DNA of 64,000 nt, from positions 186,001 to 250,000 of the forward strand of contig NZ_LRUC01000006.1 in assembly GCF_001550095.1 (NCBI RefSeq), given 5' to 3'. How positions within the stretch are numbered: position 1 is the stretch's first letter; each line of letters begins with the position of its first letter. The translations under genes were made by a program, and so were the position numbers. The notes beneath the pieces were generated by a model that was not told where the DNA came from, did no database searches, and worked only from the letters and a program-made list of their open reading frames with translations. The stretch is from Celeribacter ethanolicus (GTDB lineage: Bacteria > Pseudomonadota > Alphaproteobacteria > Rhodobacterales > Rhodobacteraceae). Shown one piece after another: positions 41,616-63,625 of the stretch.

Positions 41616-41627
41616 GGGGCCTCCTGA

Positions 41628-42761: not shown

Positions 42762-42835
42762 GGTTCTGACTCCTTGTTGGTTCATCAGGGAAGGCGGCTT
42801 TGTGCCGCTTGTTGTTGTGGTCTGGCTTTCGAGGC

Positions 42836-42876: not shown

Positions 42877-42893
42877 GGGGTGACGTCGGCCCC

Positions 42894-46112: not shown

Positions 46113-46338
46113 GCTCCGCCAAAACGGCGCCTGCGGTGACGGGGGTGGCGTCGTCGACGCTGTAGCCTTTGAAGGTGCCCGCGATGTCGGCGGTCACTGC
46201 GATGAAGGTTTTCATCACTTCGATCAGGCCGATCTGATCGCCGATGGCCACCGCATCCCCCGGTGCCTTAAAGGGCGGCTCCTCGGGGGAGGGCTTGTGA
46301 TAAAAGGTGCCGGGGAGGGGGGACTGGATGTCGCTCAT
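46105..46338 (-). CDS. Minimal biotin carrier protein (BCCP-like)
   Basis: A 77-residue biotinyl domain. The usual EAMKM motif appears as EVMKT, with biotin-accepting lysine K43. It lacks the N-terminal region of housekeeping AccB (about 150 residues), so it is a free-standing carrier. It overlaps the biotin carboxylase by eight bases and follows pxpA by 29. Confidence 0.88.
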   Translation of the reverse strand: MSDIQSPLPGTFYHKPSPEEPPFKAPGDAVAIGDQIGLIEVMKTFIAVTADIAGTFKGYSVDDATPVTAGAVLAELD

Positions 46339-46367
46339 GATGTGGTTTCCCTGTTGTTTGGACCGGT

Positions 46368-47147
46368 TCAGGCGGTCTCGAGCACGGCGGAGGCCGGTGC
46401 GATGTTGATCCCGTTTCCGGTGAGAGCGGTGCGAATGGCGCGCCCGATCTCAACCGCGCCGGGGGTGTCGGAATGGAAACAGATGGACTCGAACGCGATG
46501 TCGATATCTTTGCCGGTGACGGTGGTCACCTTGCCTTCGACGCAGGCACGCAGACATTTCCGGGCGATCTCTTCGGGATCGGGCCGACCGACGCGGCGGG
46601 TGAAGACGATGGACCCGTCGTCGCCATAGTCGCGGTCGGCGTAGAATTCCCGGATCACCGGCTGGCCCAGACGTTTGGCGACCTCGTAGGTTTTCGAGGT
46701 CCCCATGCAAAAGATCAAGAGATCGCCGCTGATCGCCGCCAGACTTTCGATCATGTGGCGCGACAGGTCTTCGTTGACGGCGGCCTCCATGTAGAGCGCG
46801 CCGTGAGGTTTGACGTGCTGGAGGCGAATGCCGTGACGGCGCCCGAATTCGCGCACCGCGCCGACCTGATAGATGATGTCATTGACCAGCTCTTCGGGGG
46901 TGGTCTTGATGTAGCGGCGGCCAAAGCCCTGAAGATCGCGGTAGCCGGGATGCGCGCCAAGGCCCACGCCGTAGGTCTGCGCCAGTTTGATCACCCGATC
47001 CATGGAGTTCGGATCGCCGGCATGAAACCCGGCCGCGATATTGGCCGAGGAGATCAGAGCCATCAGCTCTTCATCGGGGGCGTCGCTCAGAACCCAATGT
47101 CCGAAGCCCTCTCCCATGTCGCAATTCAAATCGATGATCTTTCGCAT
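46368..47147 (-). CDS. pxpA: 5-oxoprolinase subunit A (LamB/YcsF family)
   Basis: A 259-residue protein beginning [16 protein letters not shown], the LamB/YcsF signature, followed by [38 protein letters not shown] and a C-terminal [14 protein letters not shown]. It is the hydrolytic subunit of PxpABC. It is the first gene of the eight-gene leftward run and faces a LysR-type gene across a 321-base gap. Confidence 0.93.
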
Positions 47148-48404: not shown

Positions 48405-48917
48405 TCAGAGGTAGCTCGTCGGAATTGCCGTGGTGAATTTCAACTCTTCCATCGAGATCATCGAATTGACCTGGCTGAATTCGAGCTTCTGGATCATCTG
48501 TTTGTAAACCGCATCGTAGGAGGCCATGTCCGGCACCACGACCTTGAGGATGTAATCCACTGTGCCAGTGAGGCGATAGGCCTCCATCACCTCGGGGATC
48601 TCGTCGATCAGTTCACGAAACCTGTTGAGCCAGTCGATCTCATGGTGCGAAGTGCTGACCCCGATGAACACTGTGAGGGGTACATTGGCGCGGGTCTGAT
48701 CCACGAGGGCGACACGTTTCTTGATCACCCCCGCCTCTTCCATCCGCTTGATCCGCCGCCAGCACGGGTTGGTCGACAGGCCCACCGCCTCGGAAATCGC
48801 CTGAATCGGCGTGTCGCTGTCCTCTTGCAAAAGTGTGAGGATTTGCTGGTCGATCTCATCGAAGGTCATGCTTTCGATCGGCTTCGATCCGGTTTTGCGG
48901 GGGCGGGTCTCTGTCAT
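48405..48917 (-). CDS. Lrp/AsnC-family transcriptional regulator
   Basis: A 170-residue regulator with an N-terminal helix-turn-helix (IDQQILTLLQEDSDTPIQAISEAVGLSTNPCWRRIKRMEEAGVI pattern, residues about 22-65) and a C-terminal RAM ligand domain (GTVDYILKVVVPDM). Its ATG overlaps the stop of the VOC gene, so it is the last gene of an SDR-VOC-Lrp operon. Lrp-type proteins usually sense amino acids and act on adjacent genes, here possibly the divergent cluster starting at 50.7 kb. Confidence 0.9.
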   Translation of the reverse strand: MTETRPRKTGSKPIESMTFDEIDQQILTLLQEDSDTPIQAISEAVGLSTNPCWRRIKRMEEAGVIKKRVALVDQTRANVPLTVFIGVSTSHHEIDWLNRFRELIDEIPEVMEAYRLTGTVDYILKVVVPDMASYDAVYKQMIQKLEFSQVNSMISMEELKFTTAIPTSYL

Positions 48918-49774
48918 GCGGGAACAAACTCCAAAATTACACCTGCTGAAAATTCGGGACCAACGGCGAGGCCGTCGGTGGTCTCACACATGGCCACATT
49001 CGCATCCGTAAGGCAATGCTTTGCGGCGTCCATGTCGCGGACCTTTAGGCGCAGCGCCGTGAAGGCGCCTTTCGCGGTGCCGGTCAGGTCGAGGCCGGGA
49101 TAGAGCGCGGCCATGCGCGCCGCCGTGGCGAGGATCAGGGGGGCAGAGTTCGGGCCGGTTTCAATCACCGTCAGCCCGTCTTCGGTATGTACAGTGCCCT
49201 TGGCCCATAGGCGCGCAAAGCCTAGGGCGTCTTCTTCGGGTGTCTCGGAGATCGCAAGGATCGCGTCAATACCGCAAACGGTATTGGGGTGCTCCAGAAG
49301 CTCGGGAATCCAAACCGTTTCGCGGGTTTTGTGCTGGCACATGAAGACCATGCCAAATGGGGTCTCCTCGGGGGTAAAGTTGACGGTGGAAAAGGCGGCG
49401 ATGCCTTCGCAACCATCGGGCAGCGGCACCGGGCGCGAGAAACTTCCGAGCCCCTGCGTGGTGATGCCCAGATCGCCAAGCGCTTTTGCGGCGGCTTCGG
49501 CGTCGTCGATCCGGCAGGCGATGGCATGAAGCCCCTGTCCCATGGTGGCCAAAGTCTCCCGGCGCGAGGCGTTCAGCTCGGTCGGCGTCAGAATGCCCAA
49601 GAGTTCGAAATAGTCGTCCGGGAACATGATCGTGTAATTCGCCGTGCCCTTGGCGGCGGAATGGGTGCCGCGCGGCGACAGGGTGAAGCCAAGCGCCTGA
49701 TACTGCGCGGCGGCGCTGTCGAGATCGTCAACGAGGGCAAAGCAATGGTCGATGCCTTTGATGGGATGGGTCAT
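48914..49774 (-). CDS. VOC/glyoxalase-like protein
   Basis: A 286-residue protein starting IKGIDHCFALVDDLDSAAAQYQALGF, typical of the vicinal-oxygen-chelate fold, with a second half-module ending GVILEFVPA. Possible metal ligands include H10 and E57. Such proteins are dioxygenases, lyases or binding proteins; no substrate can be assigned. It lies between the SDR and Lrp genes. Confidence 0.75.
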   Translation of the reverse strand: MTHPIKGIDHCFALVDDLDSAAAQYQALGFTLSPRGTHSAAKGTANYTIMFPDDYFELLGILTPTELNASRRETLATMGQGLHAIACRIDDAEAAAKALGDLGITTQGLGSFSRPVPLPDGCEGIAAFSTVNFTPEETPFGMVFMCQHKTRETVWIPELLEHPNTVCGIDAILAISETPEEDALGFARLWAKGTVHTEDGLTVIETGPNSAPLILATAARMAALYPGLDLTGTAKGAFTALRLKVRDMDAAKHCLTDANVAMCETTDGLAVGPEFSAGVILEFVPA

Positions 49775-49798: not shown

Positions 49799-50509
49799 TT
49801 AGGTGCGAACGGGGCTCAGAACGATTTCCGGCAGGCAGATGCCGGGCTGCATTTCGGCGACGAAGAGCGCGGTTTTCGCCATATCCTCCGGTTGGATCAT
49901 CGCGGCCATTTGTGCGGCATCGAAGCCGGGGCGTTTCGCCAAAAGCGGCGTCGCCACCTCGGCGGGGCAAAGGGCGGTGGAGCGGATGCCGTTCTTGCCC
50001 TCCTCGTCATTGAGGCTGAGCGAGAGATCGGATAGCGCATGTTTCGAGGCGCCATAGACCACGCCGCTGACCGGTGAATGAAACCGCCCGGCCCAGCTCG
50101 ACGTATGGATCATCACGCCGTCTTTCTGGGCGCGCATGATCGGCAGGCAGGCGGCGATCACATTGAGCGCACCGGTGATGTTCACGTCGATCACCCGATC
50201 CCAGCTCTCCCAATCGAGATCGGCCCAACTGCGTTTCGGGATGTTCAGCCCGGCATTGTTGCACAGCACATGCAGCCCGCCCGACCAGTCCGCGATCTTT
50301 TGTGCGGCCTCGACCATGCCTGCGCGGTCGGTGATGTCACCGGGCAGGACCAGAGCAGCCTCGGGATCGGGCAGGGCGGCGGCTACGGCCTCAAGGCTGT
50401 CACGCCCTCGTGCAGTCAGCGCCACGCGATACCCGGCCTCCGCAAACCCCCGTACCATGGCGGCGCCGATGCCGGACCCCGCGCCGGTGATCCATGCGGT
50501 TTTCAACAT
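49799..50509 (-). CDS. Short-chain dehydrogenase/reductase
   Basis: A 236-residue classical SDR. The cofactor motif TGAGSGIG is at 8-15, NNAG at 84-87, and the catalytic Y152-x3-K156 lies in VYGASKH. D58 in GDIT is the usual adenine-binding aspartate position. It is the first gene of the leftward operon and divergent from the peptide-type transporter. Confidence 0.9.
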   Translation of the reverse strand: MLKTAWITGAGSGIGAAMVRGFAEAGYRVALTARGRDSLEAVAAALPDPEAALVLPGDITDRAGMVEAAQKIADWSGGLHVLCNNAGLNIPKRSWADLDWESWDRVIDVNITGALNVIAACLPIMRAQKDGVMIHTSSWAGRFHSPVSGVVYGASKHALSDLSLSLNDEEGKNGIRSTALCPAEVATPLLAKRPGFDAAQMAAMIQPEDMAKTALFVAEMQPGICLPEIVLSPVRT

Positions 50510-50707: not shown

Positions 50708-52321
50708 ATGACTTTCACGATGAAACAGGCGGGCACGATGAAGCAGGCGGGGCTGGCGCTCGCCATGACCGGGGCCCTGAGTTCCGTGGCCTTTGCGGCC
50801 CATGCGGAGGAAGAGGTCCAGAAGGGCGGCACCGCCGTCATCCACATGATTTCCGAACAGCGCATCCTCAATCCGGGTCTGCGCGCCTCCACCGGGGTCT
50901 ATAATATCACCGGCAAGATCATGGAGCCGCTGATCGACAAGAGCTATGAGGGCTATGAGCCGGTGCTGGCAACCGAATGGTCCGGCTCCGACGACGGCCT
51001 GACGATCACGCTCAAATTGCGGGAAGGGGTGAGATGGCACGATGGCGTGGATTTCACCTGTGACGACGTGGCGTTTTCGGCGATGGAGCTTTGGAAAAAG
51101 CTGCTGAACTACTCCTCCGCGCTTCAGGCCAACCTTGAAAGCGTCGATTGCCCGGACCCGCACACGGCGGTGTTCAACTATTCGAAACCGATGCCGCTCG
51201 AACTCTTCGTCGCCGCCATGCCCGATCTGGGTCACCCGGTGCCGAAACATCTGTTTGAGGGCACGGATATTCTCAAGAACGAGTATAACACCGCGCCTGT
51301 CGGCACCGGCCCGTTCAAATTTGTCGAATACGAGCGCGGTCAATATGTGATGGCCGAAAAGAACGAGGACTATTGGCGCGAGGGCTATCCCTATCTCGAC
51401 CGCATCGTCTGGCGTTTCATCAAGGACAAGTCCGCCGCAGCCGCCGCCTTGGAGGCGGGTGAGGTGCAGGAATCCGGTTTCATCGGCGTCTCCATGGCCG
51501 ATGTCGAACGGTTCAGCCAGGATGACCGGTTCGAGGTCGGCACTATGGGCTATGAAAACAACGTCGCCCACTCGACCGTCGAGTTCAACCATCGCAACCC
51601 GATCCTCGCTGACCGGAAAGTGCGTCAGGCGATGTATCACGGGCTCGACATCGACTATGCGATCAAGACCATCATGCATGGCTATGCGAAACCGGGGCGC
51701 GGCCCGATCCCCAGCGCCGGTGGCATCAACTACACCGACGATGTGCCGATCTATGACTATGACCCGGAACTGGCCAAGCAGATGCTCGACGAGGCGGGGT
51801 ATCCGGTTCTGGAAGACGGCTATCGCTTCCACCTGCGCCACCGTCCGGCGCCCTGGGGTGAGTATACCCAGCTCTGGGCCGAATATTATGCGCAGGCGAT
51901 GAAAGAGATCGGCATCGACGTCGAGATTCTGACCAACGACGCGCCGGGCTTCTTGAACGGTGTCTATCGCGACCACGATTTCGACACGGCGAACGGCTGG
52001 CACCAGTTCCGCTCCGACCCGGCCGTCTCCACCATGGTGTGGCTGCGCTCCGGTCAGCCGGAAGGCACGCCCTGGACCAACCAGTTCGGCTGGAAGGATG
52101 AGGAGATGGACGCGATGATCGACGCCGCCGCCTCCGAGCTTGATGTCGAGAAACGCGCCGCGATGTATCACGAGATTCAGGCCAGAGAAATGGAAGAACT
52201 GCCGGTGATCTTCGCAATCGAACACCCGTTCATCTCGGTCACCTCCAAAAAGCTCCACAACCACCACAATACGCCGCGGTGGAACTCGTCGAGCTGGTAC
52301 GATCTCTGGCTCGAACAGTGA
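50708..52321 (+). CDS. Oligopeptide-type ABC transporter substrate-binding protein (family 5)
   Basis: A 537-residue periplasmic binding protein of the DppA/OppA family. Its signal peptide (about residues 1-37) contains a duplicated MKQAG, and EEEVQKGGTAVIHM begins the mature part. Family features include LREGVRWHDGVDFTCDDVAFS, TGPFKFVEYERGQYVMAEKN and FNHRNPILADRKVRQAMYHG. It heads an operon whose other members point to a cyclic sulfur/nitrogen amino-acid derivative rather than a simple peptide. Confidence 0.92.
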   Translation: MTFTMKQAGTMKQAGLALAMTGALSSVAFAAHAEEEVQKGGTAVIHMISEQRILNPGLRASTGVYNITGKIMEPLIDKSYEGYEPVLATEWSGSDDGLTITLKLREGVRWHDGVDFTCDDVAFSAMELWKKLLNYSSALQANLESVDCPDPHTAVFNYSKPMPLELFVAAMPDLGHPVPKHLFEGTDILKNEYNTAPVGTGPFKFVEYERGQYVMAEKNEDYWREGYPYLDRIVWRFIKDKSAAAAALEAGEVQESGFIGVSMADVERFSQDDRFEVGTMGYENNVAHSTVEFNHRNPILADRKVRQAMYHGLDIDYAIKTIMHGYAKPGRGPIPSAGGINYTDDVPIYDYDPELAKQMLDEAGYPVLEDGYRFHLRHRPAPWGEYTQLWAEYYAQAMKEIGIDVEILTNDAPGFLNGVYRDHDFDTANGWHQFRSDPAVSTMVWLRSGQPEGTPWTNQFGWKDEEMDAMIDAAASELDVEKRAAMYHEIQAREMEELPVIFAIEHPFISVTSKKLHNHHNTPRWNSSSWYDLWLEQ

Positions 52322-52331
52322 TCTGACGCCG

Positions 52332-52364
52332 GCGGGCGCGTCGTCCCTGCGCGCCCGCTCTTTT
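52332..52364 (+). terminator. Attenuator-type hairpin after the binding-protein gene
   Basis: GCGGGCGCG (52332-52340) and CGCGCCCGC (52350-52358) form a perfect 9-bp stem followed by TCTTTT. It probably reduces but does not stop transcription into the permease genes. Confidence 0.65.
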
Positions 52365-52399
52365 GACATTTGCCCATGATCCCGAAGGATCCAAAGACA

Positions 52400-53389
52400 A
52401 TGACACTGCACATGCCCCCGATCCTGACCTACGCGCTGAGGCGTCTGGTTCAGGCCATTCCCGTGGTCATCCTGATCATGATCGGCACATTTCTTTTGCT
52501 CAAACTGGCCCCCGGCGACACGGTCGATGCGCTTGTCGGCGACATGGGCGGCGCGGATGCCGCCTTCATCGCGCGGCTTCGGGCCGAATACGGTCTCGAC
52601 CAACCCATTTGGGTGCAGCTCTGGCGCTATATGGTCAAACTGGCGAGCTTCGATTTCGGCTGGTCCTTTGTCTATGAGCAACCCGTCGCGACCGTTTTGA
52701 TGGACCGGGTCGGCACCACGCTGATGCTGATGGCCGCCTCTTTGAGTATCGCCTTTACCGCGGGGATCGTTTTGGGCGCCATTGCCGCACGCCGCGCCTA
52801 TTCCGCGACCGACAACCTGATTTCCATCCTCGGCCTCGTGTTCTACGCCACACCGTCGTTCTTCCTGTCGCTGATGCTGATGCTGGTCTTCTCCGTGAAA
52901 CTCGGCTGGCTGCCCGTCGGCGGGATCAAGACCATCGCCGCCTTCTACACCGGCTGGGATCACGTCTGGGATGTGGTGCGCCACCTGATCATGCCGACCA
53001 CCGCTTTGTCTCTGATCTATCTGGCGTTTTATCTGCGCCTGATGCGGGCCTCCGTGATGGAAGTTGCCGATCTCGATTACGTCCGCACCGCCCGCGCCAA
53101 GGGCGCCCGCGAAGGCCGTCTCATGACCCACCACATCATGCGCAACGCACTCCTGCCGGTGGTCACGCTTTTGGGGCTGCAATTCTCCACCGTTCTGGGC
53201 GGTTCCATCGTGGTTGAAACCATCTTCACCCTGCCGGGACTTGGGCAGCTCGCCTACCAGTCCGTCGTCCAGCGCGACATGAACACTTTGATGGGCATCA
53301 TTTTTCTCTGTGCCATCATCGTGGTCGTCGTCAATTTCCTCACCGACCTGCTCTACGCACGTCTCGACAGCCGGATCGAACTCGCATGA
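52400..53389 (+). CDS. Oligopeptide-type ABC transporter permease (DppB family)
   Basis: A 329-residue permease with six membrane segments, the N-terminal RRLVQAIPVVILIMIGTFLLLKLAPGD pattern and coupling region YVRTARAKGAREGRLMTHHIMRNALLPV. The ATG at 52400 is chosen on the AAGGA upstream; an ATG at 52376 is possible. It overlaps the next permease by four bases. Confidence 0.93.
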   Translation: MTLHMPPILTYALRRLVQAIPVVILIMIGTFLLLKLAPGDTVDALVGDMGGADAAFIARLRAEYGLDQPIWVQLWRYMVKLASFDFGWSFVYEQPVATVLMDRVGTTLMLMAASLSIAFTAGIVLGAIAARRAYSATDNLISILGLVFYATPSFFLSLMLMLVFSVKLGWLPVGGIKTIAAFYTGWDHVWDVVRHLIMPTTALSLIYLAFYLRLMRASVMEVADLDYVRTARAKGAREGRLMTHHIMRNALLPVVTLLGLQFSTVLGGSIVVETIFTLPGLGQLAYQSVVQRDMNTLMGIIFLCAIIVVVVNFLTDLLYARLDSRIELA

Positions 53390-54261
53390 CCCTCGCCGAT
53401 ACTGAAATCGCCCCGCCCGAGCCGCCGCGCTATGTCATGTTCTGGCGCCGCTACAAACGCAACCGCGCCGCTCTGCTTGGCCTCTTCCTGTTTGCCCTTG
53501 TCGTGCTGATGGCATTGACCGCTGGCATCATTGATCCCGGCGATCCGCTCCGCCGCGCGGGCGAGCCGCTGACCCCGCCCTTCATGAACTGGGACACGCC
53601 CCTCGGTACCGATCAGCTTGGCCGTGATGTGCTCTCCGGTGTCTTCTACGGTGCCCGTATCTCGCTTTTGATTGGCGTCGTTGCCACGCTTGTCGCCATC
53701 GTGATTGGCGTCGTCATCGGCGCGCTGGCGGGTTACTTTGGCGGCTGGGTCGATGACGTGCTGATGCGCATCACCGAGGCCTTTCAAACCATCCCGAACT
53801 TTGTCCTTTTGCTGACGCTCGTCGCCATCATGGGATCGAAAATCGAATGGATCACCATCGCCATCGGCATCGTCAGTTGGACCGCGCCTGCCCGTATGGT
53901 GCGTGCCGAATTTATGTCGCTGCGGCATCGAGAATTCGTCGATGCCGCCCGCAATCTCGGCGTGTCGAACACCTCGATCATCTTTCGCGAAATCCTGCCC
54001 AACGCCATGCCGCCGATCGTGGTTTACGCCTCCGTCATCATGGCGTTGTCGATCCTGATGGAAAGCGCTCTGGCCTTTCTCGCACTGGGCGATCCGAACT
54101 ACGCGAGTTGGGGCAATATGATCGGCCAGGGCCGCGCCGTGCTGCGCTCCGCGCCTTACTGCGCCGTGATCCCCGGCATCGCGATCATTCTGACTGTGCT
54201 GTCCTTCTCGCTTCTGGGCGAGGGGCTCAACGATGCGCTCAATCCGAGGCAGAAGAAATGA
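53386..54261 (+). CDS. Oligopeptide-type ABC transporter permease (DppC family)
   Basis: A 291-residue permease with the DppC pattern: RYKRNRAALLGLFLFALVVL, GTDQLGRDVLSGVFYGARISLLIG and the coupling motif EFVDAARNLGVSNTSIIFREILPN. It overlaps both neighbours by four bases. Confidence 0.94.
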   Translation: MTLADTEIAPPEPPRYVMFWRRYKRNRAALLGLFLFALVVLMALTAGIIDPGDPLRRAGEPLTPPFMNWDTPLGTDQLGRDVLSGVFYGARISLLIGVVATLVAIVIGVVIGALAGYFGGWVDDVLMRITEAFQTIPNFVLLLTLVAIMGSKIEWITIAIGIVSWTAPARMVRAEFMSLRHREFVDAARNLGVSNTSIIFREILPNAMPPIVVYASVIMALSILMESALAFLALGDPNYASWGNMIGQGRAVLRSAPYCAVIPGIAIILTVLSFSLLGEGLNDALNPRQKK

Positions 54262-55904
54262 CCAAGACACCTCCTCCCGTCCTCGATCTGTGTAAACTGG
54301 AAATTTCCTTGCCCAAGGGCGCGGATCGCCGCTATGCCCTCGAAGGTCTCGATCTGACCATTAACGCGGGCGAGATCGTTTGTCTCGTTGGCGAAAGTGG
54401 CTCCGGCAAATCGCTTTGTGCAGGCGCCATCATGGGCCTTCTGCCGGAACCGCATGTGCGCGTCACCGGTGGTGCGATCCGGTTTATGGGCGAAGAGCTT
54501 CGCGGCAAATCGGACGCCGAGATGCGCAAACTGCGCGGCGCAGATATTTCGATGATCTTCCAGGAACCTATGACCGCGCTCAACCCGCAGAAAACCGTGG
54601 GCTGGCAGATCGACGAAGTGCTGCGTCTTCACACCAAAATGACCAAGGCGGAGCGCAAGGCCCGCGCGCTTGAGATGTTGGAGCGTGTCCACATTCCTGA
54701 GCCCGCGTCGGCCTATAACGCCTACCCGCATCAAATCTCCGGCGGCCAGCGTCAGCGGGTTATGATCGCCATGTCTTTGGTGCTTTCGCCGAAACTGATC
54801 ATCGCGGATGAACCGACCACGGCGCTCGACGTGACGACCCAGTTGCAAATCCTCAAACTCATTCGTGAGTTGCAGGAAGAAGAGGGCGCGGGGGTTCTCT
54901 TCATCACGCATGACTTTGGCGTGGTGGCGGAGATCGCCGACAAGGTGGCCGTGCTCTGTCGCGGCGAGTTGGTCGAGAGCGGCACGACGGACGCCGTGCT
55001 CAACCGCCCGCAACACCCCTATACCCGCGCGCTGATCGGGGCCGTTCCTGCGTTGACGCCGCCGCCGGTCACAGCCGCCTCTGATGCGCCTGTCGTGCTC
55101 AAGGGCACGGGGCTTAAAAAGACCTTTGCCGCGCGCGGCGGATTGCTGTCAGGCAAGCGCAAGGCGGTGACGGCGGTCAAGGATTTGACCTTTGAACTGC
55201 GTCAGGGTGAAACCCTTGGTGTGGTCGGCGAAAGTGGTTCTGGCAAGACCACCGTGTCGCGCATCGTCACACGTCTTTTGGAATGCGATCACGGCTCCGT
55301 CGAGTTGGACGGCACCGATCTTTTGGCCGCAACGCCGAAAGAATTGCGTGCCCTGCGTCAGCATATTCAGATGGTGTTTCAGGACCCGATGGCCTCGCTT
55401 AATCCGCGCAAACGCGTGGTCGATCTCATCGCGCAGGGGCCTATCGTGCATGGGGCCGATCCGAAAAAGGCCCGCGAGGATGCGAAGCGGCTTTTGGAGT
55501 TGGTCGAACTGTCCCCCGCCGCCGCGAACCGTTTCCCGCATGAGTTCTCCGGCGGTCAGCGCCAGCGCATCGGCATCGCCCGCGCGCTGGCGATGGAACC
55601 CAAGGTGATCGTTGCCGATGAACCCGTTTCCGCCCTCGATGTGTCGGTGCAGGCGCAGGTGCTCAAACTGCTCGCAGACCTGCGCGACCGGCTCAAGCTG
55701 TCCTTGCTCTTCGTCACCCATGACCTGCGCGTCGCGGCTCAGCTTTGTGACCGGATCATCGTCATGCAAAAGGGCGAAATCGTCGAACATGGGCTCACCG
55801 CCGAGGTCTTCGCCAACCCGCAGCACCCCTATACGCAAAACCTGCTCTCTTCCATTCCGGGCCGCGACTGGACACCCCCGTCGCTGCGCACGGATGCCGC
55901 CTGA
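54258..55904 (+). CDS. Fused oligopeptide-type ABC ATPase (DppD-DppF)
   Basis: A 548-residue protein joining two ATPases that are often separate. The first has GESGSGKSL (45-53), [15 protein letters not shown] and [12 protein letters not shown]. The second has GESGSGKTT (from about 324), [15 protein letters not shown] and [12 protein letters not shown]. Each half ends with the HPYT(R/Q)xL motif typical of Opp/Dpp ATPases. One gene therefore supplies both nucleotide-binding sides. Confidence 0.94.
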
Positions 55905-55910
55905 GGATTT

Positions 55911-57539
55911 ATGATGTCACTGGAATTTAAAGATATCCGCAGCGCTCTGATCGGCGAGGGGGCGGCGATGTCCGGCCCCTTTGGGCCACGTGCCCTGATC
56001 TATGCGGATTATGTTGCCTCCGGCCGTGCGCTTGGCTTTATCGAAGACGCGATCCGCACCCATGTTCTGCCTTACTATGGCAACACCCACACCGAGACCT
56101 CCTTTGTCGGGCGCCGCACCACGCAACTGCGCGAAATGGCGCGCGAGGCGGTGCGCACGGCGGTCGATGCGGACGAGAACCACGCGGTGATCTTCACCGG
56201 CTCTGGTGCGACCGGCGCGGTCGACAAGCTGGTGCGGGCCTTCGCGATGAAAGGTCTCTCTGAGGGGGTCGTTTTTGTCGGTCCCTATGAGCATCACTCC
56301 AACGATCTGCCCTGGCGTGAAAGCGGCGCGGAATTGGTGCGCATTCCTTTGAACGCGGCGGGCACGATCTGTCTTGAAGCGCTGGAGCAGGCCCTGAAAG
56401 CCCATGCCGACGCGCCGCTCAAGATCGGCGCGTTTTCCGCCGCCTCGAACGTCACCGGCGTGCGCACCGATCTGCGTTCTATTGCCAAGCTGCTCCATGC
56501 GCATGAGGCTTTCTGTATCGCCGATTTCGCCGCCGCCGCACCCTATATGCCGGTGGAACTTTCGGCAACCTCTGAGGGCGCAGGTGACCGGATCGACGCG
56601 GCTGTGATCTCGCCGCATAAATTCCCGGGCGGTCCGGGGGCTTCCGGTGTGCTGATCGCGGACCGCAGCCTGTTCGACACCGCGCGTCCGACGCTGACGG
56701 GCGGTGGCACGGTGAGCTATGTCACCTCCGAAGGCCACAGCTACATAACCGATCCCGAGCACCGCGAAGAGGGTGGTACGCCCGCCATCGTCGACAACAT
56801 CCGCGCCGGCATGGTGATGCAGCTCAAACGCGATATGGATGAGGCCCGCGTCGAAGCGCGCGAAACCGTCCTGACCCGTCGGATGGAAGACGCGCTGCGC
56901 GCCATTCCGGGGATGGAGCTTTTGGGGCCATCGAATGTGCCGCGTCTGGGGATTTTCTCCTTCAACCTGCGGGTCAAAGGCAAGCTCTTGCATCACAACT
57001 ATGTGGTGGCGCTGCTCAACGATCTCTTCGGCATTCAGGCCCGTGGCGGTTGTTCTTGTGCCGGGCCTTACGGGCACGCTCTGCTCGACATTGACCTGAC
57101 CACAAGCGCCCGTCACGAGGCCGCCGTGCAGCACGGTCATTCGATCTTCCGTCCCGGCTGGGCACGGTTTGGGGTGAACTGGTTCTTTGAGGACGAGGAT
57201 GTGGACAAGATCGCCGCGGCGATCCGCTTTGTCGCCGATCACGGTCTCGATATGCTGGCCTATTACCGATTGGACGCCGTCGAGGGCATTTGGCGCGCGA
57301 CGCCCGCGTTCGAAGACACTTGCCCCTCTGTGCTCTCCGCATTGTGGGAGGGACAGGCCGCCAGCACCGATACCGTACCTGATTTCACCACCTGTCTCGC
57401 GCAGGCTGAGGCGCTGGCCGAAACCGCCAAAACCCTGACGTGTTGCAAAGGGCCGGATCTCTCCGCCGAAGAAGAGGCGCTGCGCTGGTTCTGGCTGCCG
57501 CAGGAAGTCACCGGTTTGATCCCGGAAGGAGACGCATGA
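55911..57539 (+). CDS. Class V aminotransferase / cysteine desulfurase-like PLP enzyme
   Basis: A 542-residue PLP enzyme. It begins its fold with IYADYVASGRALG, shows TGSGATGAVDKL, H128/H129, D205 in FCIADFAAAAP, the PLP lysine K237 in SPHKFPGGPG, and a cysteine pair in RGGCSCAGP (C381, C383) at the place of the desulfurase catalytic loop. Normal desulfurases have about 400 residues; here about 90 extra C-terminal residues hold a CC pair (TLTCCKGPD). It follows the transporter by six bases and overlaps the FAD gene, so a role on the imported compound is inferred. Desulfurase, lyase or transaminase chemistry are all possible. Confidence 0.8.
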   Translation: MMSLEFKDIRSALIGEGAAMSGPFGPRALIYADYVASGRALGFIEDAIRTHVLPYYGNTHTETSFVGRRTTQLREMAREAVRTAVDADENHAVIFTGSGATGAVDKLVRAFAMKGLSEGVVFVGPYEHHSNDLPWRESGAELVRIPLNAAGTICLEALEQALKAHADAPLKIGAFSAASNVTGVRTDLRSIAKLLHAHEAFCIADFAAAAPYMPVELSATSEGAGDRIDAAVISPHKFPGGPGASGVLIADRSLFDTARPTLTGGGTVSYVTSEGHSYITDPEHREEGGTPAIVDNIRAGMVMQLKRDMDEARVEARETVLTRRMEDALRAIPGMELLGPSNVPRLGIFSFNLRVKGKLLHHNYVVALLNDLFGIQARGGCSCAGPYGHALLDIDLTTSARHEAAVQHGHSIFRPGWARFGVNWFFEDEDVDKIAAAIRFVADHGLDMLAYYRLDAVEGIWRATPAFEDTCPSVLSALWEGQAASTDTVPDFTTCLAQAEALAETAKTLTCCKGPDLSAEEEALRWFWLPQEVTGLIPEGDA

Positions 57540-58837
57540 TGTCTGTCGAGTTTCCCAAATCCCTCTGGGCCGCCACAGCGCCAGACCGTCCGCTGTCCGC
57601 GCCACTTGCAGGCGTCGAGGAAACCGATGTCGCCGTGATCGGCGCGGGGTTCACAGGCCTGTCTGCCGCCATCGAGGCCCGCAAACGCGGCCATGCGGTC
57701 ACCGTCGTCGAAGGCAAAGCCGCAGGTTGGGGCGCGTCGGGCCGCAACAACGGGCAAGTCATTCCGATCCTGACCACCGCTGAACCCGATGTCTGGGTCT
57801 CGCGCTATGGCGAGGCGGGCAAACGCATGGTGCGGCTGATCGGCAACTCGGGCGATGTGCTGTTCGATCTGGTGCGCGAATTCGACATGCAGGCGGAGGC
57901 GGAACAGAACGGCTGGTTCCAACCTGCGCATAGCCCCGGACGTGTGAAATTGTCACAAAAACGGGTCGAGGCGTGGCAGCGCTATGGCTTTCCGGCGGAG
58001 TTGAAAGACGCGCAACAATGCGCCGACATTCTCGGCACGGACTTCTGGTACGGCGGCATGTTCAACCCGACGGGCGGCCATATCAACCCGCTGGCCCTCG
58101 CGCGCGAAATGGCACGGGTGGCGGAACATCTGGGCGCGGTGATCCATGAGGACAGCCCCGTGGTGTCTTATGAGCGGATCGGCTCAGAATGGGTGATCAA
58201 GACCGCGCAGGGCACGCTCAAGGCTCGGGCACTGATCCTTGCCACCAACGCCTATACCGGCGAGCTGGCCCCGCGTCTGGCGCCCCGGATTGCGCGCTCT
58301 GTCGTGCCGGTTCTGAGTTGGCAAATGGCGACAGAGCCGGTGGGCGACAATCTGCGTCAGAAAATCCTGCCGGGCCGACAGGCGGTTTCCGATACCCGAG
58401 GGGATTTGCGGTTTTTCCGTTATGACGCGCGCAATCGGTTGATCACCGGGGGCGCCGTGATGGGGTCCTTTGACGTTGCCAACCGTGTGCGCAAGAAAGC
58501 CGCGAAAAGTCTCGCCGAGGCTTTCCCCGAGTTGGGCGTGCCAGAAATGACCCATGTCTGGTCGGGCTATATCGGCATGAACTGGGACCGCTTCCCGCGT
58601 GTTCACAAACTCGGCCCCGATGGCTGGGCCTGGGTCGGATGTAACGGGCGCGGCGTCGCGCTTGGCACCTCTTTGGGCCGGGAACTGGCCCGCGCGGCCA
58701 CAGGTCAGCCCGAAGACGAACTGGCCCTGCCGGTGACCGAGCCGCATCCTTTTCCGGTGCATGGCTTTGTGCGCCGCTTTGCCCCCACCTATCTGGCTTG
58801 GCTCAAGCGTCAGGACCACAAGGAAGTGAACCTATGA
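57536..58837 (+). CDS. FAD-dependent amino-acid oxidoreductase (DadA/DAO family)
   Basis: A 433-residue flavoprotein with the dinucleotide motif VIGAGFTGLSAAIEA (GxGxxG at 36-41), WGASGRNNGQVIP after the first Rossmann segment and ATNAYTGELAP later, as in GlyOx/DadA-like oxidases. It probably oxidises an amine or D-/imino-acid carbon. It overlaps the genes on both sides by four bases. A start at 57536 or 57539 fits GGAAGGAG. Confidence 0.88.
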   Translation: MMSVEFPKSLWAATAPDRPLSAPLAGVEETDVAVIGAGFTGLSAAIEARKRGHAVTVVEGKAAGWGASGRNNGQVIPILTTAEPDVWVSRYGEAGKRMVRLIGNSGDVLFDLVREFDMQAEAEQNGWFQPAHSPGRVKLSQKRVEAWQRYGFPAELKDAQQCADILGTDFWYGGMFNPTGGHINPLALAREMARVAEHLGAVIHEDSPVVSYERIGSEWVIKTAQGTLKARALILATNAYTGELAPRLAPRIARSVVPVLSWQMATEPVGDNLRQKILPGRQAVSDTRGDLRFFRYDARNRLITGGAVMGSFDVANRVRKKAAKSLAEAFPELGVPEMTHVWSGYIGMNWDRFPRVHKLGPDGWAWVGCNGRGVALGTSLGRELARAATGQPEDELALPVTEPHPFPVHGFVRRFAPTYLAWLKRQDHKEVNL

Positions 58838-59328
58838 CTGAAGAAAAAAAGATGGACCTGAACGATGTTCCGATCCTGCTGCGCCGCCGGATTGAGGCGA
58901 TGATCCTCAAACATGTGCTCGACGTGATCACCGAGCGGTCTGGCCGCGAAGAGGCCGAGGCCGTGATCGGGGCTGCCTGTTCCAAATCCGCAATCGAACA
59001 AGGCCAGATGCTGGCCGAAGAGCTGGGCCATGCGCCAGACCTGACGGATTTCGCCGCGATCCAGCCGAACTGGACCCGCGAGGATGCACTCAGGATCGAG
59101 ACCATCGAGATGTCCGAGGACAAGATGGATTTTAACGTGGTGAAATGCCGATACGCGGAGATGTATCAGGAGATGGGGCTGGGCGACATCGGCCATCTGT
59201 TGTCCTGCAACCGCGATGGAGATTTCTGCATCGGCTACAACCCGGAGATCGAAATGACCCGGTCTCAGACGATCATGAAAGGCGCAAGCCACTGCGATTT
59301 CCGCTACAGAATGAAGAAGGAGGCCTGA
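58834..59328 (+). CDS. L-2-amino-thiazoline-4-carboxylate hydrolase family protein
   Basis: A 164-residue protein of the ATC hydrolase family. The C-terminal block (LSCNRDGDFCIGYNPEIEMTRS, then KGASHCDFRYR) is the part recognised. Known members open the thiazoline ring of ATC to N-carbamoyl-L-cysteine in Pseudomonas. Cysteine C139 in DGDFC and the C-terminal SHCDF cysteine are conserved-looking. It overlaps the FAD oxidase gene and is followed after one base by an M20 amidohydrolase, the pair of activities of the Pseudomonas pathway. Confidence 0.82.
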   Translation: MTEEKKMDLNDVPILLRRRIEAMILKHVLDVITERSGREEAEAVIGAACSKSAIEQGQMLAEELGHAPDLTDFAAIQPNWTREDALRIETIEMSEDKMDFNVVKCRYAEMYQEMGLGDIGHLLSCNRDGDFCIGYNPEIEMTRSQTIMKGASHCDFRYRMKKEA

Positions 59329-59329
59329 G

Positions 59330-60499
59330 ATGGCTGTCGAAAATTGGGTCGCCAAACAGGTCGCCGATCTGACGGAGTTCCGCCGCGATTTGCATATGAA
59401 CCCCGAGCTTTTGTATGACGTGGAGCGCACGGCGCAGAAGGTGGCCGAGGCGCTCCGTGCCGCGGGCGTTGATGAGGTCCATGAGGGCATCGGCAAGACC
59501 GGCGTGGTCGGGGTGATCCGGGGACAAAGCAATGTGTCCGGGCGCAGCATCGGTCTGCGCGCCGATATGGATGCTCTTCCTATCATTGAGGAAACCGGCA
59601 AGCCCTACGCCTCGCAAATTCCTGGCAAGATGCACGCCTGTGGGCATGACGGTCACACGACGATGCTTTTGGGCGCGGCGCGGCATCTGGCGGAAAGCCG
59701 GGCCTTTGACGGGACTGTGGTGGTGATCTTCCAACCTGCCGAAGAGGGCGGCGCGGGCGCGCGGGCGATGATCGAAGACGGGCTGTTCACCCGCTGGCCC
59801 TGTAACGAGGTCTACGGCATGCACAACCGCCCGAACCTGCCTGTTGGGCAGTTCACCATCAATTCGGGTCCGATCATGGGCTCTGTCGATGAGGTGAAAA
59901 TTACCATCACCGGACGTGGCGGTCATGCGGCCCGGCCCGAACAGACCATCGACCCGCTGCCCATCGCGGGCGCGCTGTTGCAGGCGGTTCAGACGCTGAC
60001 GTCGCGCAATATGGACCCGATCGACAGCGCGGTGATTTCGCTCTGCACCATTCAGGCCGGAAATGCCTTCAACGTCATCCCGCAGGACGTGACCATGACC
60101 GGCACGGTGCGCACATTGCGCGAAGAGGTGCGTGACATGATCGAGGAACGCTTGACCGTCATGGTCGAGCACATCGCGGTGGCTTACGGCGCGGTGGGCA
60201 AGACCGAGTACACGCGCCACTATCCGGTGACCGTGAACCACGCGCGCGAAACCGAGTTGGCGGCGAAAGTGGCGCAGGAGGTGGCGGGCGTCGAGAATGT
60301 CCATCTCGATATGCCGCAGACGCTGGGCGGGGAGGATTTCTCCTTCATGCTCAACGAGGTGCCCGGTGCGATGATCAATGTCGGCAACGGCCCGTCGGCG
60401 GCGCTGCATCACCCGAAATACGATTTTAACGACGATGTGATCGCCTGGGGGAGTTCCTATTGGACGACCTTGGTGCGCCAACGTCTTCCGCTCGGTTGA
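59330..60499 (+). CDS. M20-family amidohydrolase (aminoacylase/carbamoylase-like)
   Basis: A 389-residue metallohydrolase. Metal-site features are D79 in GLRADMDALP, C104 and H106 in HACGHDGH, E138/E139 in PAEEGG and H165 in YGMHNRP, and a C-terminal GGEDFSFM. The family hydrolyses N-acyl, N-carbamoyl or hippurate-type amides. Placed one base after the ATC hydrolase homologue behind GAAGGAGG, it probably removes the carbamoyl or acyl group after ring opening. It is the last gene of the operon. Confidence 0.9.
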   Translation: MAVENWVAKQVADLTEFRRDLHMNPELLYDVERTAQKVAEALRAAGVDEVHEGIGKTGVVGVIRGQSNVSGRSIGLRADMDALPIIEETGKPYASQIPGKMHACGHDGHTTMLLGAARHLAESRAFDGTVVVIFQPAEEGGAGARAMIEDGLFTRWPCNEVYGMHNRPNLPVGQFTINSGPIMGSVDEVKITITGRGGHAARPEQTIDPLPIAGALLQAVQTLTSRNMDPIDSAVISLCTIQAGNAFNVIPQDVTMTGTVRTLREEVRDMIEERLTVMVEHIAVAYGAVGKTEYTRHYPVTVNHARETELAAKVAQEVAGVENVHLDMPQTLGGEDFSFMLNEVPGAMINVGNGPSAALHHPKYDFNDDVIAWGSSYWTTLVRQRLPLG

Positions 60500-60554: not shown

Positions 60555-60625
60555 ATTGGATAAACACAATTCGATCTGGTTTCGCCACGTAGCGATAGAC
60601 TGCGTTTTAGAGATGTTAGGGGATA

Positions 60626-60676
60626 TGGTAGCGGAGGAGGGACTTGAACCCCCGACACGCGGATTATGATTCCGCC
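60626..60676 (-). other. 3' fragment of a CAU-anticodon tRNA (integration site)
   Basis: On the minus strand this holds an anticodon stem-loop with anticodon CAU (GCGGA-ATCATAA-TCCGC), a T-arm with TTCAAGT, the acceptor 3' strand CTCCGCT, a discriminator A and CCA. No D-arm and no matching acceptor 5' strand (AGCGGAG) exist to the right; unrelated sequence and an integrase gene begin there. It is therefore a duplicated tRNA-Met-like 3' end, the usual attachment core left by a tyrosine integrase. Confidence 0.8.
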
Positions 60677-60927
60677 GTAGGGCTTTTGACTTGTAAGCAG
60701 TCCTGCGCCGGGATTGAGCTGATTGAGACAAATTGAGACGTTCAAGGTGCTGATAAAAAATGTAATTTTTGCGCTTTGGCGTGCTTTCGTGGCAACAGAA
60801 GTTGTCTCAAAGAGTGTCAGGCGTTCTTAGGAAATCTAACGACATTTGCAGTCCCGCGCAGTCCCATTCTGGATTCTGCCAAGTCGCCAAAATCGTTCTT
60901 GCACCAACCAAAATGCAAGGAACGAAC
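60677..60927. other. Region between the att site and the integrase gene
   Basis: About 250 bases with no gene. It contains TTGAGAC at 60723-60729 and 60733-60739 and its inverse GTCTCAA at 60804-60810; TTGAGACAA (60723-60731) mirrors TTGTCTCAA (60802-60810). These look like arm-type sites for an integrase or excisionase. Confidence 0.5.
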
Positions 60928-62283
60928 ATGAAGAAAGAGATCACTGATCGCACTGCACGAAACGCCGAAATTCGAGCAAAGCGATATCACATCAAAGATA
61001 CGAAGGTTGAGGGCTTTACACTCCGAGTAATGCCCAGTGGAACAAAAACCATGGCTGCGATGGTTCGGAATCATCAAGGCAAGATGATAACGAAGACCAT
61101 CGGTCGATACCCAGAGATGAGTATTAAAGAAGGTCGGGAGCGGTGTCGGAAAATTGCATATGGCCTGAAATACGGCGGTGATGATTTCAAAATGCCGGTG
61201 GGTGTCGAGAAAGGTGATATTACCGAGCTCAAACAGCTCTTGGACGAAGTTCAGCCAATCTTCGCGGTAAGCAAAAAGGGTTGGCGGCCGCGTGGCGGAC
61301 CGAATTCAAAGCCGAATATGCGCAGCACAATTGAGCGCGTGTTTGCAAGTCTGCTGGACAAACCCGTTTCAGAAATTTCCGAAACTGATCTCGCAGCATG
61401 TGCAAACACCTATAAAGCGATGCGTCCGCTGACCGGAAAGACCAGTGCTAATGGTCAGGTGTCGCGGGCGATCGCCTATCTCAACCCAGTGTTTGATTGG
61501 GCCGCTGGGCGAGGACAATTTGCGGCCATTGGTGCTGGTCGGCTCCAAAAAATCGACGCTCCTAATGTTCATCTTGTGCATGATCCATCTCATGACGACC
61601 CGAGCATCAAAGGTATTCGTGAGCGTGTTCTGTCAGAGATGGAGCTGTCTAAGGTCCTTCCTTTGCTAACATATCCCGCACATACGCGATTGCGTCGAAG
61701 GAATCTCCTGCCGGAAAAGGATTTCGGTCCGATTGCAATGAAGTTCATCTTCCTGACTCTTGCGCGTGTCAGCGAAGTGTCGAACGCGCGGTGGTGCGAT
61801 GTTGATTTTAGGAGCGGTGTTTGGACACGAATGGTCAAGGCAAAGGGTGGTGCTTCGAGGCGGGATGATTTGCCGTTGTCGCGGGCGGCATTGGAGCTGT
61901 TGAAGTCATTGCCGGGCTACACATGTTCGGACCGGGAAAGCTACATTTTCCCAAACCGCAACGGCGGGAAATTGTCAAACTGGGCAAGAACGAGTGAGGC
62001 AATTTTCCAAGCCAGCGGGACCAGAAGCTGGACGCGCCACGATGTGCGTCGGACCGGATCTACCCTGCTTTTAGAGCTGGAAACTCCGATTGAGACCATT
62101 GATGCAATCTTAGCGCATTCGGACCCTCTGGCAAAAACTAAGGCAAGTGGCTCAGCGAAACATTATTTGTCGGCAGTTCGGGTTTTGAAAAGCTCTGAGG
62201 ACAAACGGGTCGTGGCGTTAACCTTATTGGCCGAAGCATACGACTACATCGTATCGGGCACTGAACAAAGAAAGTTTGCATAG
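60928..62283 (+). CDS. Tyrosine-type site-specific integrase
   Basis: A 451-residue integrase. The N-terminal arm-binding region (YHIKDTKVEGFTLRVMPSGT) is of the P4/DUF4102 type. The catalytic domain shows R280 (LARVSEVSNARW), H371-x-x-R374 in RHDVRR, H397 in LAHSDP and the nucleophile Y413 in KHYLS. The ATG at 60928 follows AAGGAACGAAC; an in-frame ATG 159 bases upstream lacks such a site. It lies beside a truncated tRNA, so it integrated this element. Base composition is visibly less GC-rich than the genes to the left. Confidence 0.95.
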   Translation: MKKEITDRTARNAEIRAKRYHIKDTKVEGFTLRVMPSGTKTMAAMVRNHQGKMITKTIGRYPEMSIKEGRERCRKIAYGLKYGGDDFKMPVGVEKGDITELKQLLDEVQPIFAVSKKGWRPRGGPNSKPNMRSTIERVFASLLDKPVSEISETDLAACANTYKAMRPLTGKTSANGQVSRAIAYLNPVFDWAAGRGQFAAIGAGRLQKIDAPNVHLVHDPSHDDPSIKGIRERVLSEMELSKVLPLLTYPAHTRLRRRNLLPEKDFGPIAMKFIFLTLARVSEVSNARWCDVDFRSGVWTRMVKAKGGASRRDDLPLSRAALELLKSLPGYTCSDRESYIFPNRNGGKLSNWARTSEAIFQASGTRSWTRHDVRRTGSTLLLELETPIETIDAILAHSDPLAKTKASGSAKHYLSAVRVLKSSEDKRVVALTLLAEAYDYIVSGTEQRKFA

Positions 62284-62288
62284 GAAAG

Positions 62289-62340
62289 CCGGACGGACGG
62301 ACGCCCCCCTTCTTAGGGGGGCGTCCGTCCGTCCGGTTCC
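62289..62340. terminator. Perfect 21-bp terminator hairpin after the integrase
   Basis: Bases 62289-62309 pair without mismatch with 62316-62336 around a 6-base TTCTTA-type loop. The stem holds a GGAC tandem repeat and a run of six C/G. Only a short TTCC follows, but the stem strength should stop or stall transcription from both sides. Confidence 0.8.
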
Positions 62341-62461
62341 TCCTTATGAAAAAATCGCAAGAATGATTTTTGCATTTCAGCATGCGGCACAAAGTTATTC
62401 GTGGGCGCCAATTGCTCCCGGCGAACAACCAAAATTTTAACCAATCAAATGAGGAAAATTA

Positions 62462-63625
62462 GTGAAAACCTCCAATAAAAACAAAACTCAAGATCCGATT
62501 GAATTGCCGATCTACAAAGGTAGCGTTGCCATCCCTGCCAACAGTTTCACGCCGAACTCATACCGACCGTATATTGTAAAAGATCTGCTTCTGGCCCGAC
62601 AAGTCAGCATGGTGGCGGGAGAGTCGAACCTTGGCAAGTCTGCGATTGTAGCCGGGCTTGCCGCTCATGTTGCGATGGGGCGCGACTTCGGCGGGATGAA
62701 AGTTGTTCGGACTGCGGTTCTCTATGTCGCTGCCGAGGACCCAGAAGGCGTTCTGGAACGCGCTTACCCGTACATGAGCGATGCACCTGACGGTGCCGCG
62801 ATCTTCTCAGTGCTTGGTGAGGTGCCGGATATGACGGACCCGCGCGAATTTAGCGCTTTTAAAGACTATGTTGAACAGTTTGTGGCGCATCATGACGTTG
62901 AACGCCTCCTCATCGTATTCGATACATTCAGCCTCAGTATCGGCGATGCCGAAGAGAACCACACGCCTTCCATGACGAAGGTTATCCGTCATGCTCATCA
63001 GCTCGCAAGGTCCACAGGAGCGCATGTTCTGTTTGTCCACCATGTTGGTATAGGCGACAAAAGCCGCGGTCGAGGAAGTTCCGCCATCACGGCGTCGGTA
63101 GATACACTACTCATGCTCGAAAAAGCACAAGATGAAACTGGTGAAGTCGTGATGCTGCATCAACGCAAGCAGCGACGAGTCCGCAAAGGAAAACCGCTCG
63201 CTTTCCGAGTAAAAGCTTTTCAGGCGGGTATAGATCAAGACGGCGATGTGTTCACTGTGCCTATGGCCGTGCCTCTCAGTGAAGATGCGACATTGGCGGT
63301 TCGCAAAACTCAGTCGACTAAGAGAAGCGAGAAGCCAAGTGCTTCGAGCGCACGCGCCGCCGAGGTCTTGGGGCTTCTAAAAAAGATGGCAGAGAAGGAT
63401 CCTCAGAAATGGCATAGTCGGCAGCGGCTCGGTGAGCTTGTGGGCGGGCCTTTTAATGAAGTGCGCAGCAACAATGACACGCTCCGCAAAGCGGTCTCCC
63501 GTGCAGTCGAAACCTTGTTGAAATCGGGAGGGATTGAGCAAGGCATATGCGGAGGATACCGCTACGTGGACCCCTTCGCTGTGATCGAAGAGAATGGGGA
63601 AGGTGAAATCCCAACGCTACATTAG
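62462..63625 (+). CDS. AAA-family ATPase, RepA-helicase-like
   Basis: A 387-residue protein starting at a GTG behind GAGGAAAATTA. It has a RecA-type core: Walker A GESNLGKS (53-60), a YVAAEDPEG strand after it, Walker B LLIVFDTFS and VLFVHHVGIGDKSRGRGSSA, as in RSF1010 RepA-like helicases. A C-terminal winged-helix-like region follows from about residue 300. Such proteins are common in mobilisable islands and phage satellites, where they support replication. No plasmid origin was recognised here. Confidence 0.8.
   Translation: MKTSNKNKTQDPIELPIYKGSVAIPANSFTPNSYRPYIVKDLLLARQVSMVAGESNLGKSAIVAGLAAHVAMGRDFGGMKVVRTAVLYVAAEDPEGVLERAYPYMSDAPDGAAIFSVLGEVPDMTDPREFSAFKDYVEQFVAHHDVERLLIVFDTFSLSIGDAEENHTPSMTKVIRHAHQLARSTGAHVLFVHHVGIGDKSRGRGSSAITASVDTLLMLEKAQDETGEVVMLHQRKQRRVRKGKPLAFRVKAFQAGIDQDGDVFTVPMAVPLSEDATLAVRKTQSTKRSEKPSASSARAAEVLGLLKKMAEKDPQKWHSRQRLGELVGGPFNEVRSNNDTLRKAVSRAVETLLKSGGIEQGICGGYRYVDPFAVIEENGEGEIPTLH

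Follow-up and report, generated by a model that had tools for sequence, protein, structure and literature searches.

A candidate operon for the salvage of cysteine-aldehyde thiazolidines in Celeribacter ethanolicus and related bacteria

The 64,000-nucleotide stretch of Celeribacter ethanolicus DNA considered here (the window; contig NZ_LRUC01000006.1, positions 186,001 to 250,000) carries at 50708-60499, on its forward strand, eight genes that encode a solute-binding protein, two permeases, a two-domain ATPase, a pyridoxal phosphate (PLP) enzyme, a flavin adenine dinucleotide (FAD) enzyme, a homologue of the hydrolases of L-2-amino-thiazoline-4-carboxylate (ATC) and an amidohydrolase of family M20. 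The operon is confirmed as real: searches for open reading frames (ORFs) and protein families return these eight rightward genes in the order, and with the family assignments, of an initial annotation made from the sequence alone. The distances between successive genes are 78, -4, -4, 6, -4, -4 and 1 bases; there are thus four 4-base overlaps, one fewer than the five ATGA overlaps originally counted. What might these genes do together? We lean, with modest confidence and on comparative sequence grounds, toward a catabolic and salvage pathway for a thiazolidine-4-carboxylate, a saturated ring of five members arising from L-cysteine and an aldehyde, from which cysteine and its sulfur would be freed.

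Substrate, order of steps and every reaction of this scheme are inferred from gene content, family membership, conservation, co-occurrence, a modelled fold and an active-site alignment. The ABC importer would bring in thiazolidine-4-carboxylate. The FAD enzyme would oxidize the bond between the ring nitrogen and C2, much like the oxidases that act on the cyclic imino acids proline and pipecolate, and most likely makes a thiazoline (2-thiazoline-4-carboxylate) from the thiazolidine; the ATC homologue would add water at C2 and open the C-S bond, giving an N-acyl-L-cysteine (the N-formyl compound, if the ring derives from formaldehyde); the M20 aminoacylase would strip the acyl group to leave cysteine; and the class V PLP enzyme (PLPV), or a Cds1-like desulfhydrase in a sister clade, would remove the sulfur. 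Formaldehyde, acetaldehyde and a sugar are candidate aldehydes. Import, ring opening, deacylation and PLP-dependent release of sulfur had all been proposed in the initial annotation, and fit the comparative evidence; the FAD enzyme had been given no place. The ring-opening idea is largely supported, with a reaction order and evidence on the product now added, and the interpretation as a whole is supported in part.

The main argument turns on the company that ATC homologues keep. Scanning species genomes with an ATC alignment yielded at least 568 relatives, and the best 80 loci by likeness to the window's protein were annotated (a gene was called, wherever it lay in the locus, from a BLASTP match of at least 35% identity covering half of the reference gene; the thresholds, here and in the other locus counts, are our own). 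The FAD gene is the steadiest partner, found in 74 of the 80 (L156 and L166 are counted among them; in these two and in L155 the FAD gene is split or missing), the M20 aminoacylase is found in 66, and 65 loci have both. Pooling these 80 with 11 and 12 further loci and 12 from plasmids gives 115, and 114 when L203, which has no ATC match, is dropped; L027 and L032-L042, which belong to the window's genus or repeat scanned loci, are outside this pool. FAD and aminoacylase genes occur together in 72 of the 114, FAD alone in 11, aminoacylase alone in two and a carbamoylase-type M20 in nine, leaving 20 with none of these (for FAD and aminoacylase the limit was 9 kb on the same strand, for the carbamoylase 3 kb from the ATC gene on its strand). 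None of the 83 loci with an FAD gene among the 114 also has a neighbouring carbamoylase, and all nine loci with a neighbouring carbamoylase lack the FAD gene (Fisher p 1.7e-10, on related loci). (A technical note: in L107 a carbamoylase-like gene and the ATC gene are some 8 kb apart, beyond the 3-kb limit; the carbamoylases of L103 and L104 are confirmed by family, scoring 396 and 463 bits against TIGR01879.) An FAD gene that is tied to an aminoacylase and never to a neighbouring carbamoylase argues that the oxidation is a step of the ring-opening route, whose product would be an N-acyl- rather than an N-carbamoyl-cysteine. A saturated ring that carries no amino group would need an extra oxidation before it can be opened in this manner, and the FAD/aminoacylase pairing accordingly supports a thiazolidine.

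Among the nearest described systems is the ATC pathway of Pseudomonas, whose second enzyme is an M20-type amidohydrolase. It comprises, in the accessible text of PMC10821248, an L-ATC hydrolase, the release of cysteine from N-carbamoyl-L-cysteine and the degradation of that cysteine by a desulfhydrase. Common to both are the hydrolase family, PF14196, and the opening of a ring to an N-substituted cysteine; the operon differs in adding an FAD oxidase, in having an aminoacylase where the other has a carbamoylase, and in bringing a PLP enzyme of its own. The neighbouring TIGR01879-type carbamoylase characteristic of the Pseudomonas arrangement is absent from the operon. With no carbamoylase, and with FAD tied to an aminoacylase, the classical ATC pathway as such is rejected; so is a hydantoin-type pathway, for which the M20 protein is of the wrong subfamily. 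A variant of the ATC pathway is unlikely, if the most serious of the competing proposals: the imported ring would already be a 2-aminothiazoline or another thiazoline, the ATC homologue would turn it into N-carbamoyl- or N-acyl-cysteine, from which the M20 enzyme would release cysteine, and the FAD enzyme would have a side task, for instance on a second substrate or on a D-amino acid. PF14196 is, after all, named for ATC hydrolase, and loci in Pantoea, S. meliloti and elsewhere do pair ATC homologues with carbamoylase-type M20 proteins; but a side task sits badly with an FAD gene that is the most constant partner of all and that never has a carbamoylase as its neighbour, and the M20 protein of the operon is of the aminoacylase class.

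That protein (59330..60499, + strand), the presumed N-acylcysteine deacylase, scores 350.8 bits against TIGR01891 (cut-off 153.75) and only 32.4 bits against TIGR01879. The initial annotation, correct as to family, had overlooked that by these scores it is an M20 of the aminoacylase type and not of the N-carbamoylase type seen beside other ATC homologues. The motif HACGHD is present in 67 of 67 of these M20 proteins. The closest solved sequence is YxeP (5e-82), which, going by the descriptions in two papers, is probably one and the same protein as ScmP; the next include a plant IAA-amino acid hydrolase and an N-acylglutamine aminoacylase. YxeP deacetylates N-acetylcysteine, and ScmP is selective for it, according to the accessible parts of PMC9706529 and PMC12757645. 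In the Bacillus subtilis salvage of S-(2-succino)cysteine and S-alkylcysteines (yxe and similar clusters) that these parts describe, the adduct is N-acetylated and then cleaved by a monooxygenase or a lyase. There too, cysteine is won back from a damaged adduct with an ABC importer, an oxidoreductase and a homologous M20 deacetylase. The operon differs from the Bacillus system by its FAD oxidase and its ring hydrolase, and among its eight genes, which include the YxeP homologue, there is neither an acetyltransferase nor a monooxygenase.

The FAD enzyme (57536..58837, +; DAO family, 1.3e-61), presumed to be the first to act, had been described as a DadA-like oxidase. A DAO-type oxidase or dehydrogenase it is, but it lies closer to L-pipecolate oxidase AmaA, its best NCBIfam match at 244.7 bits over nearly the whole length, than to the D-amino acid dehydrogenase model (56.6 bits); at 600 bits, the AmaA cut-off (NF050086) is far above its score, and the protein does not qualify as an AmaA. 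A profile search of solved structures places 1y56_B first (5.1e-20), labelled sarcosine oxidase and presumably a proline dehydrogenase complex. D-amino-acid oxidases act on thiazolidine-2-carboxylate, the ring formed from cysteamine and glyoxylate, and membership of the DAO family lends some color to the notion that this is the substrate, oxidized by the DAO enzyme and then opened to N-oxalylcysteamine. We consider it very improbable: PLP enzymes of the families found here work on amino acids, and cysteamine is not one. A plasmid of Agrobacterium leguminum (L234) has a homologue of the FAD gene in the company of oxoprolinase genes (HyuA/HyuB), an ABC importer and genes for a VOC protein and an M81 peptidase, and its annotation shows no ATC gene closer than 7 kb; this set may serve to open the ring of some other substrate by a parallel route.

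The ATC homologue itself (58834..59328, +; 1.4e-35), the presumed thiazoline ring hydrolase, matches PF14196 at 123.7 bits (gathering cut-off 28.1) over positions 1-145 of 145. No further Pfam domain is found in it, and a sequence search of the PDB returned no match up to E 1. Its model, built with 38 sequences, has a predicted local distance difference test score (pLDDT) of 92.4 and adopts a V4R-type fold, resembling the V4R sensor domains of MopR and PoxR as well as Bet3 (E from 2.8e-05, template-modelling score about 0.55); C105, C125 and C154 are invariant in the 38 sequences. The fold match fits a sequence likeness between the ATC hydrolase family and V4R that is already noted in the accessible text of PMC5847659. 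Might the protein be a ligand sensor, in an operon for the general use of N-acyl or peptide-bound amino acids? Elsewhere the V4R fold is familiar from phenol sensors, and the MopR/PoxR resemblance and the Opp-type importer are compatible with such a role, but we regard it as improbable: PF14196 takes its name from an enzyme (Tashima 2006, as cited in PMC5847659), Pfam shows no second domain in the ATC homologue, and the protein is steadily paired with the FAD and M20 proteins.

The PLPV protein (55911..57539, +; Aminotran_5, 7.8e-50) is probably a C-S enzyme of the cysteine desulfurase type. Its nearest solved sequences are SufS-type desulfurases (1.3e-32), and in alignment with 8d8s and 5j8q both the catalytic loop cysteine of SufS and the PLP lysine find their counterparts; the motif RGGCSCAGPY and the lysine motif S-x-HK are each present in 35 of 35 PLPV proteins. 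SufS is its nearest family, but PLPV exceeds the length of the SufS model by about 140 residues and reaches 161.2 bits where the cut-off is 475.1. An ordinary aminotransferase is rejected on account of the conserved loop cysteine. Of the 80 surveyed loci, 33 have PLPV or its counterpart from loci with a branched-chain-type (Liv) importer, 12 have a Cds1-like gene, 35 have neither and none has both; in all 12 the Cds1-like gene is the next after M20. Three Cds1-like proteins (one from an Agrobacterium plasmid locus, two from the 12) score 561.7, 514.3 and 545.1 bits against NF052478, the model of L-cysteine desulfhydrase Cds1, which is their nearest family and whose cut-off is 600; the Agrobacterium protein has no match in a PDB sequence search at E 1e-25.

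PLPV homologues also occur elsewhere, and 24 such loci were inspected (11 chosen plasmid matches and 13 other fetched stretches). In five, all on Hyphomicrobiales plasmids, a gene for a Blh-like persulfide dioxygenase follows directly (one of these proteins scores 561.4 bits against a cut-off of 625). A metallo-beta-lactamase (MBL)-rhodanese fusion lies near the PLPV homologue in one Rhodococcus locus and a TauE-type exporter in three loci; most have none of these. Compact modules of a divergent Lrp gene, the PLPV homologue and the Blh-like dioxygenase are seen in L210 (5335-8277), L226, L227, L230 and L231, all on Hyphomicrobiales plasmids, joined in L227 and L231 by the TauE-type exporter; such a module has the look of a unit that detoxifies cysteine or persulfide.

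A Cds1-like gene directly after M20, the SufS cysteine in PLPV and a persulfide dioxygenase beside PLPV homologues all point to cysteine as the product. This bears on another improbable scheme, with a sulfur-free ring (an oxazolidine, imidazolidine, lactam or hydantoin-like derivative of an amino acid) and PLP enzymes acting on serine or diaminopropionate. The wider FAD family does turn up with oxoprolinases, and Celeribacter has a 5-oxoprolinase-type cluster next door; but the role is shared by two unrelated PLP families, each with its best match to a cysteine-specific model (SufS and Cds1), and some PLPV homologues adjoin the gene of a persulfide dioxygenase homologue.

The importer is of the Opp/Dpp type in every part: a family 5 solute-binding protein (50708..52321, +; SBP_bac_5, 2.5e-81), permeases of the OppB/DppB (52400..53389, +; BPD_transp_1, 4.1e-40) and OppC/DppC types (53386..54261, +; BPD_transp_1, 6.5e-34, with OppC_N), and a fused ATPase of the OppDF/GsiA/YejF type with two nucleotide-binding domains (54258..55904, +; ABC_tran, 2.6e-63, in two stretches) and oligo_HPY. 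The solved sequence closest to the binding protein is Lmo0135 (1e-48), which is CtaP, a protein of cysteine transport in the accessible text of PMC10269559; its second NCBIfam match is the glutathione-binding GsiB (135.6 bits, cut-off 594). Across the 80 loci the importer is of the Opp type in 62, of the Liv type in 13 and of neither type in five, with the same enzyme set for both types.

Each importer type has a companion. The gene for a vicinal oxygen chelate (VOC) protein is found in 60 of the 62 Opp-type loci and in none of the 13 Liv-type loci; a second ATC-family gene is found in all 13 Liv-type loci and in none of the Opp type (its divergent product at L037:2882-3382 scores 41.2 bits against PF14196). 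The window's VOC gene (48914..49774, - strand; Glyoxalase_3, 2.2e-34) encodes a presumed metalloenzyme with conserved His and Glu residues, modelled with a VOC fold at pLDDT 95.8; its sequence matches are weak (methylmalonyl-CoA epimerase, 28.6 bits against a cut-off of 114.95; PDB profiles at E 0.00027 and weaker). The protein may epimerize or otherwise ready the adduct, which is the weakest part of the scheme. Overlapping the VOC gene is that of an Lrp/AsnC-family protein (48405..48917, -; AsnC_trans_reg, 2e-20), which adjoins the VOC or the FAD gene in many relatives and probably regulates the unit; a short-chain dehydrogenase/reductase (SDR) gene (49799..50509, -; adh_short, 3e-46) is an optional member, keeping this position in many, though not all, Opp-type loci. 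The divergent Lrp and VOC genes, and often the SDR gene too, are part of the unit, whose extent had been taken as the eight genes only.

These observations invite a more general proposal, to which we give somewhat less than even credence: that this is a dedicated pathway for cysteine-aldehyde adducts, widespread in alphaproteobacteria, made of an FAD oxidase, a V4R-fold thiazoline hydrolase, an aminoacylase, interchangeable cysteine-breaking enzymes and two interchangeable importers, with the VOC protein (Opp type) or the second ATC protein (Liv type) handling the other C2 diastereomer. The cluster does occur in many bacteria of soil and sea.

The operon is not a chance array, since its eight genes are kept together in six genomes and the FAD and ATC genes co-occur in 195 relatives. 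A comparison of gene order, suggested with the initial annotation, finds all eight in the same order at 88-99% identity in six further genomes of the genus (L027, L032-L036). Five others (L037-L041) combine the PLP, FAD, ATC and M20 genes with a Liv importer, assigned from Pfam matches in L037; in L040 the M20 match is divided between two ORFs, as is the PLP match. L042, of another genus, has seven of the eight, with no M20 match in about 2.6 kb beyond its ATC gene. The ATC protein is found in 25 of the 195 relatives, own genome counted; the FAD gene (E at most 1e-100) is present in 16, and ATC in 15 of these 16 versus 10 of the 179 others (Fisher p 5e-15). Eight of the 195 have a binding protein with 78% identity or more, all of them with ATC (p 2e-8); two more genomes have a binding protein of 45-47% identity, and ATC was not detected in them. 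(Both p values are uncorrected for kinship; the FAD and binding-protein searches were run without reference to ATC.) The initial annotation had named as fatal to the pathway idea kin operons without ATC together with a binding protein that takes ordinary dipeptides only; on the first of these two points the outcome favours the idea, as these co-occurrences show. In Azospirillum the order is ATC-M20-FAD with a Liv importer, so that content is kept despite the changed order.

Several observations weigh against a thiazolidine pathway. The wider FAD family is not bound to sulfur, as the Agrobacterium leguminum locus, with its oxoprolinases and no annotated ATC gene within reach, makes plain, and one relative (G174) has an FAD match with one internal stop while ATC was not detected. 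The best NCBIfam equivalog scores of the FAD, PLPV and Cds1-like proteins all fall under curated cut-offs. The 114 loci are kin to one another, and 80 of them were picked for their likeness to the window's ATC protein, so that the survey counts cannot be taken as independent. Both cysteine-breaking genes are missing from 35 of the 80 loci, and 19 of the 24 PLPV-homologue loci have no dioxygenase match of this kind. In a tree of FAD proteins made by a quick method (73 rows, with rows of less than 85% coverage, L156 and L166, left out), the Cds1 type forms one group of 11 rows (support 97, one change), and PLPV and "neither" are intermixed; replacement of PLPV by Cds1 may, on this tree, have been one event, and the exclusion of one by the other therefore rests on few events and not on 45 independent cases. 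The VOC model matches first and mainly dioxygenases of the 4-hydroxyphenylpyruvate dioxygenase (HPPD) type in the PDB, not epimerases. Finally, the Opp-type importer hints at a substrate bulkier than thioproline.

How much of this would be new? Conversion of thioproline to N-formylcysteine is known in bacteria and mitochondria (PMC9814826), and the E. coli proline enzymes, proline dehydrogenase and ProC, oxidize thioproline (PMC9814826, PMC12899673); the chemistry is that of the first two steps proposed here. Unlike the operon, the bacterial cases are side activities of proline enzymes, and the accessible parts of these papers do not mention a dedicated operon, hydrolase or importer. Among the open-access matches listed, there is no description of a bacterial thiazolidine operon or of one combining ATC and FAD genes (the subscription literature lies mostly outside this coverage). 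The operon looks like a new combination of known enzyme families, distinct from both the Pseudomonas ATC pathway and the Bacillus S-alkylcysteine salvage; the new parts would be the dedicated operon and the thiazoline hydrolase, the first two reactions being known chemistry. If the scheme holds, chemistry described in bacteria, as far as these sources go, as side reactions of proline enzymes would acquire genes of its own, and part of the PF14196 family would acquire a job. Thiazolidines, usually viewed as chemical traps for aldehydes, would become nutrients: an environmental source of sulfur, nitrogen and carbon.

The operon also travels. Among the plasmid matches examined (ATC, 10 of 40 listed from 85 records; PLPV, 11 of 40 from 216 records; FAD, 3 of 32), the same operon is found on plasmids of Sagittula and Pseudosulfitobacter, once conjugative: in L097 (Pseudosulfitobacter), a 164-kb conjugative plasmid, the whole of it is flanked by relaxase and type IV secretion genes. 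In an ATC locus on a Martelella plasmid (L100), the Lrp gene and the Liv importer are separated by a gene of the aspartate/glutamate-racemase family, possibly an amino-acid or ring racemase.

On one side of the unit, on the opposite strand at 40116-47147 of the window, lie the 5-oxoprolinase-type cluster (PxpA, biotin carboxylase, CT_C_D and CT_A_B) and a ribose-type ABC importer; such a cluster also adjoins the Liv-type operon in three genomes of the genus (L038-L040). On the other, at about 60600-63625, the 3' half of a tRNA gene was recognized by eye near 60.6 kb (anticodon loop with CAT); with ARAGORN, neither the window nor any of six kin loci gave a tRNA. An integrase (60769-62283; phrog_1, 5.3e-34) and a primase/helicase-like ORF follow, and G+C drops to 52-54%; on these four features together, the region directly after the operon is probably the edge of an integrated element.

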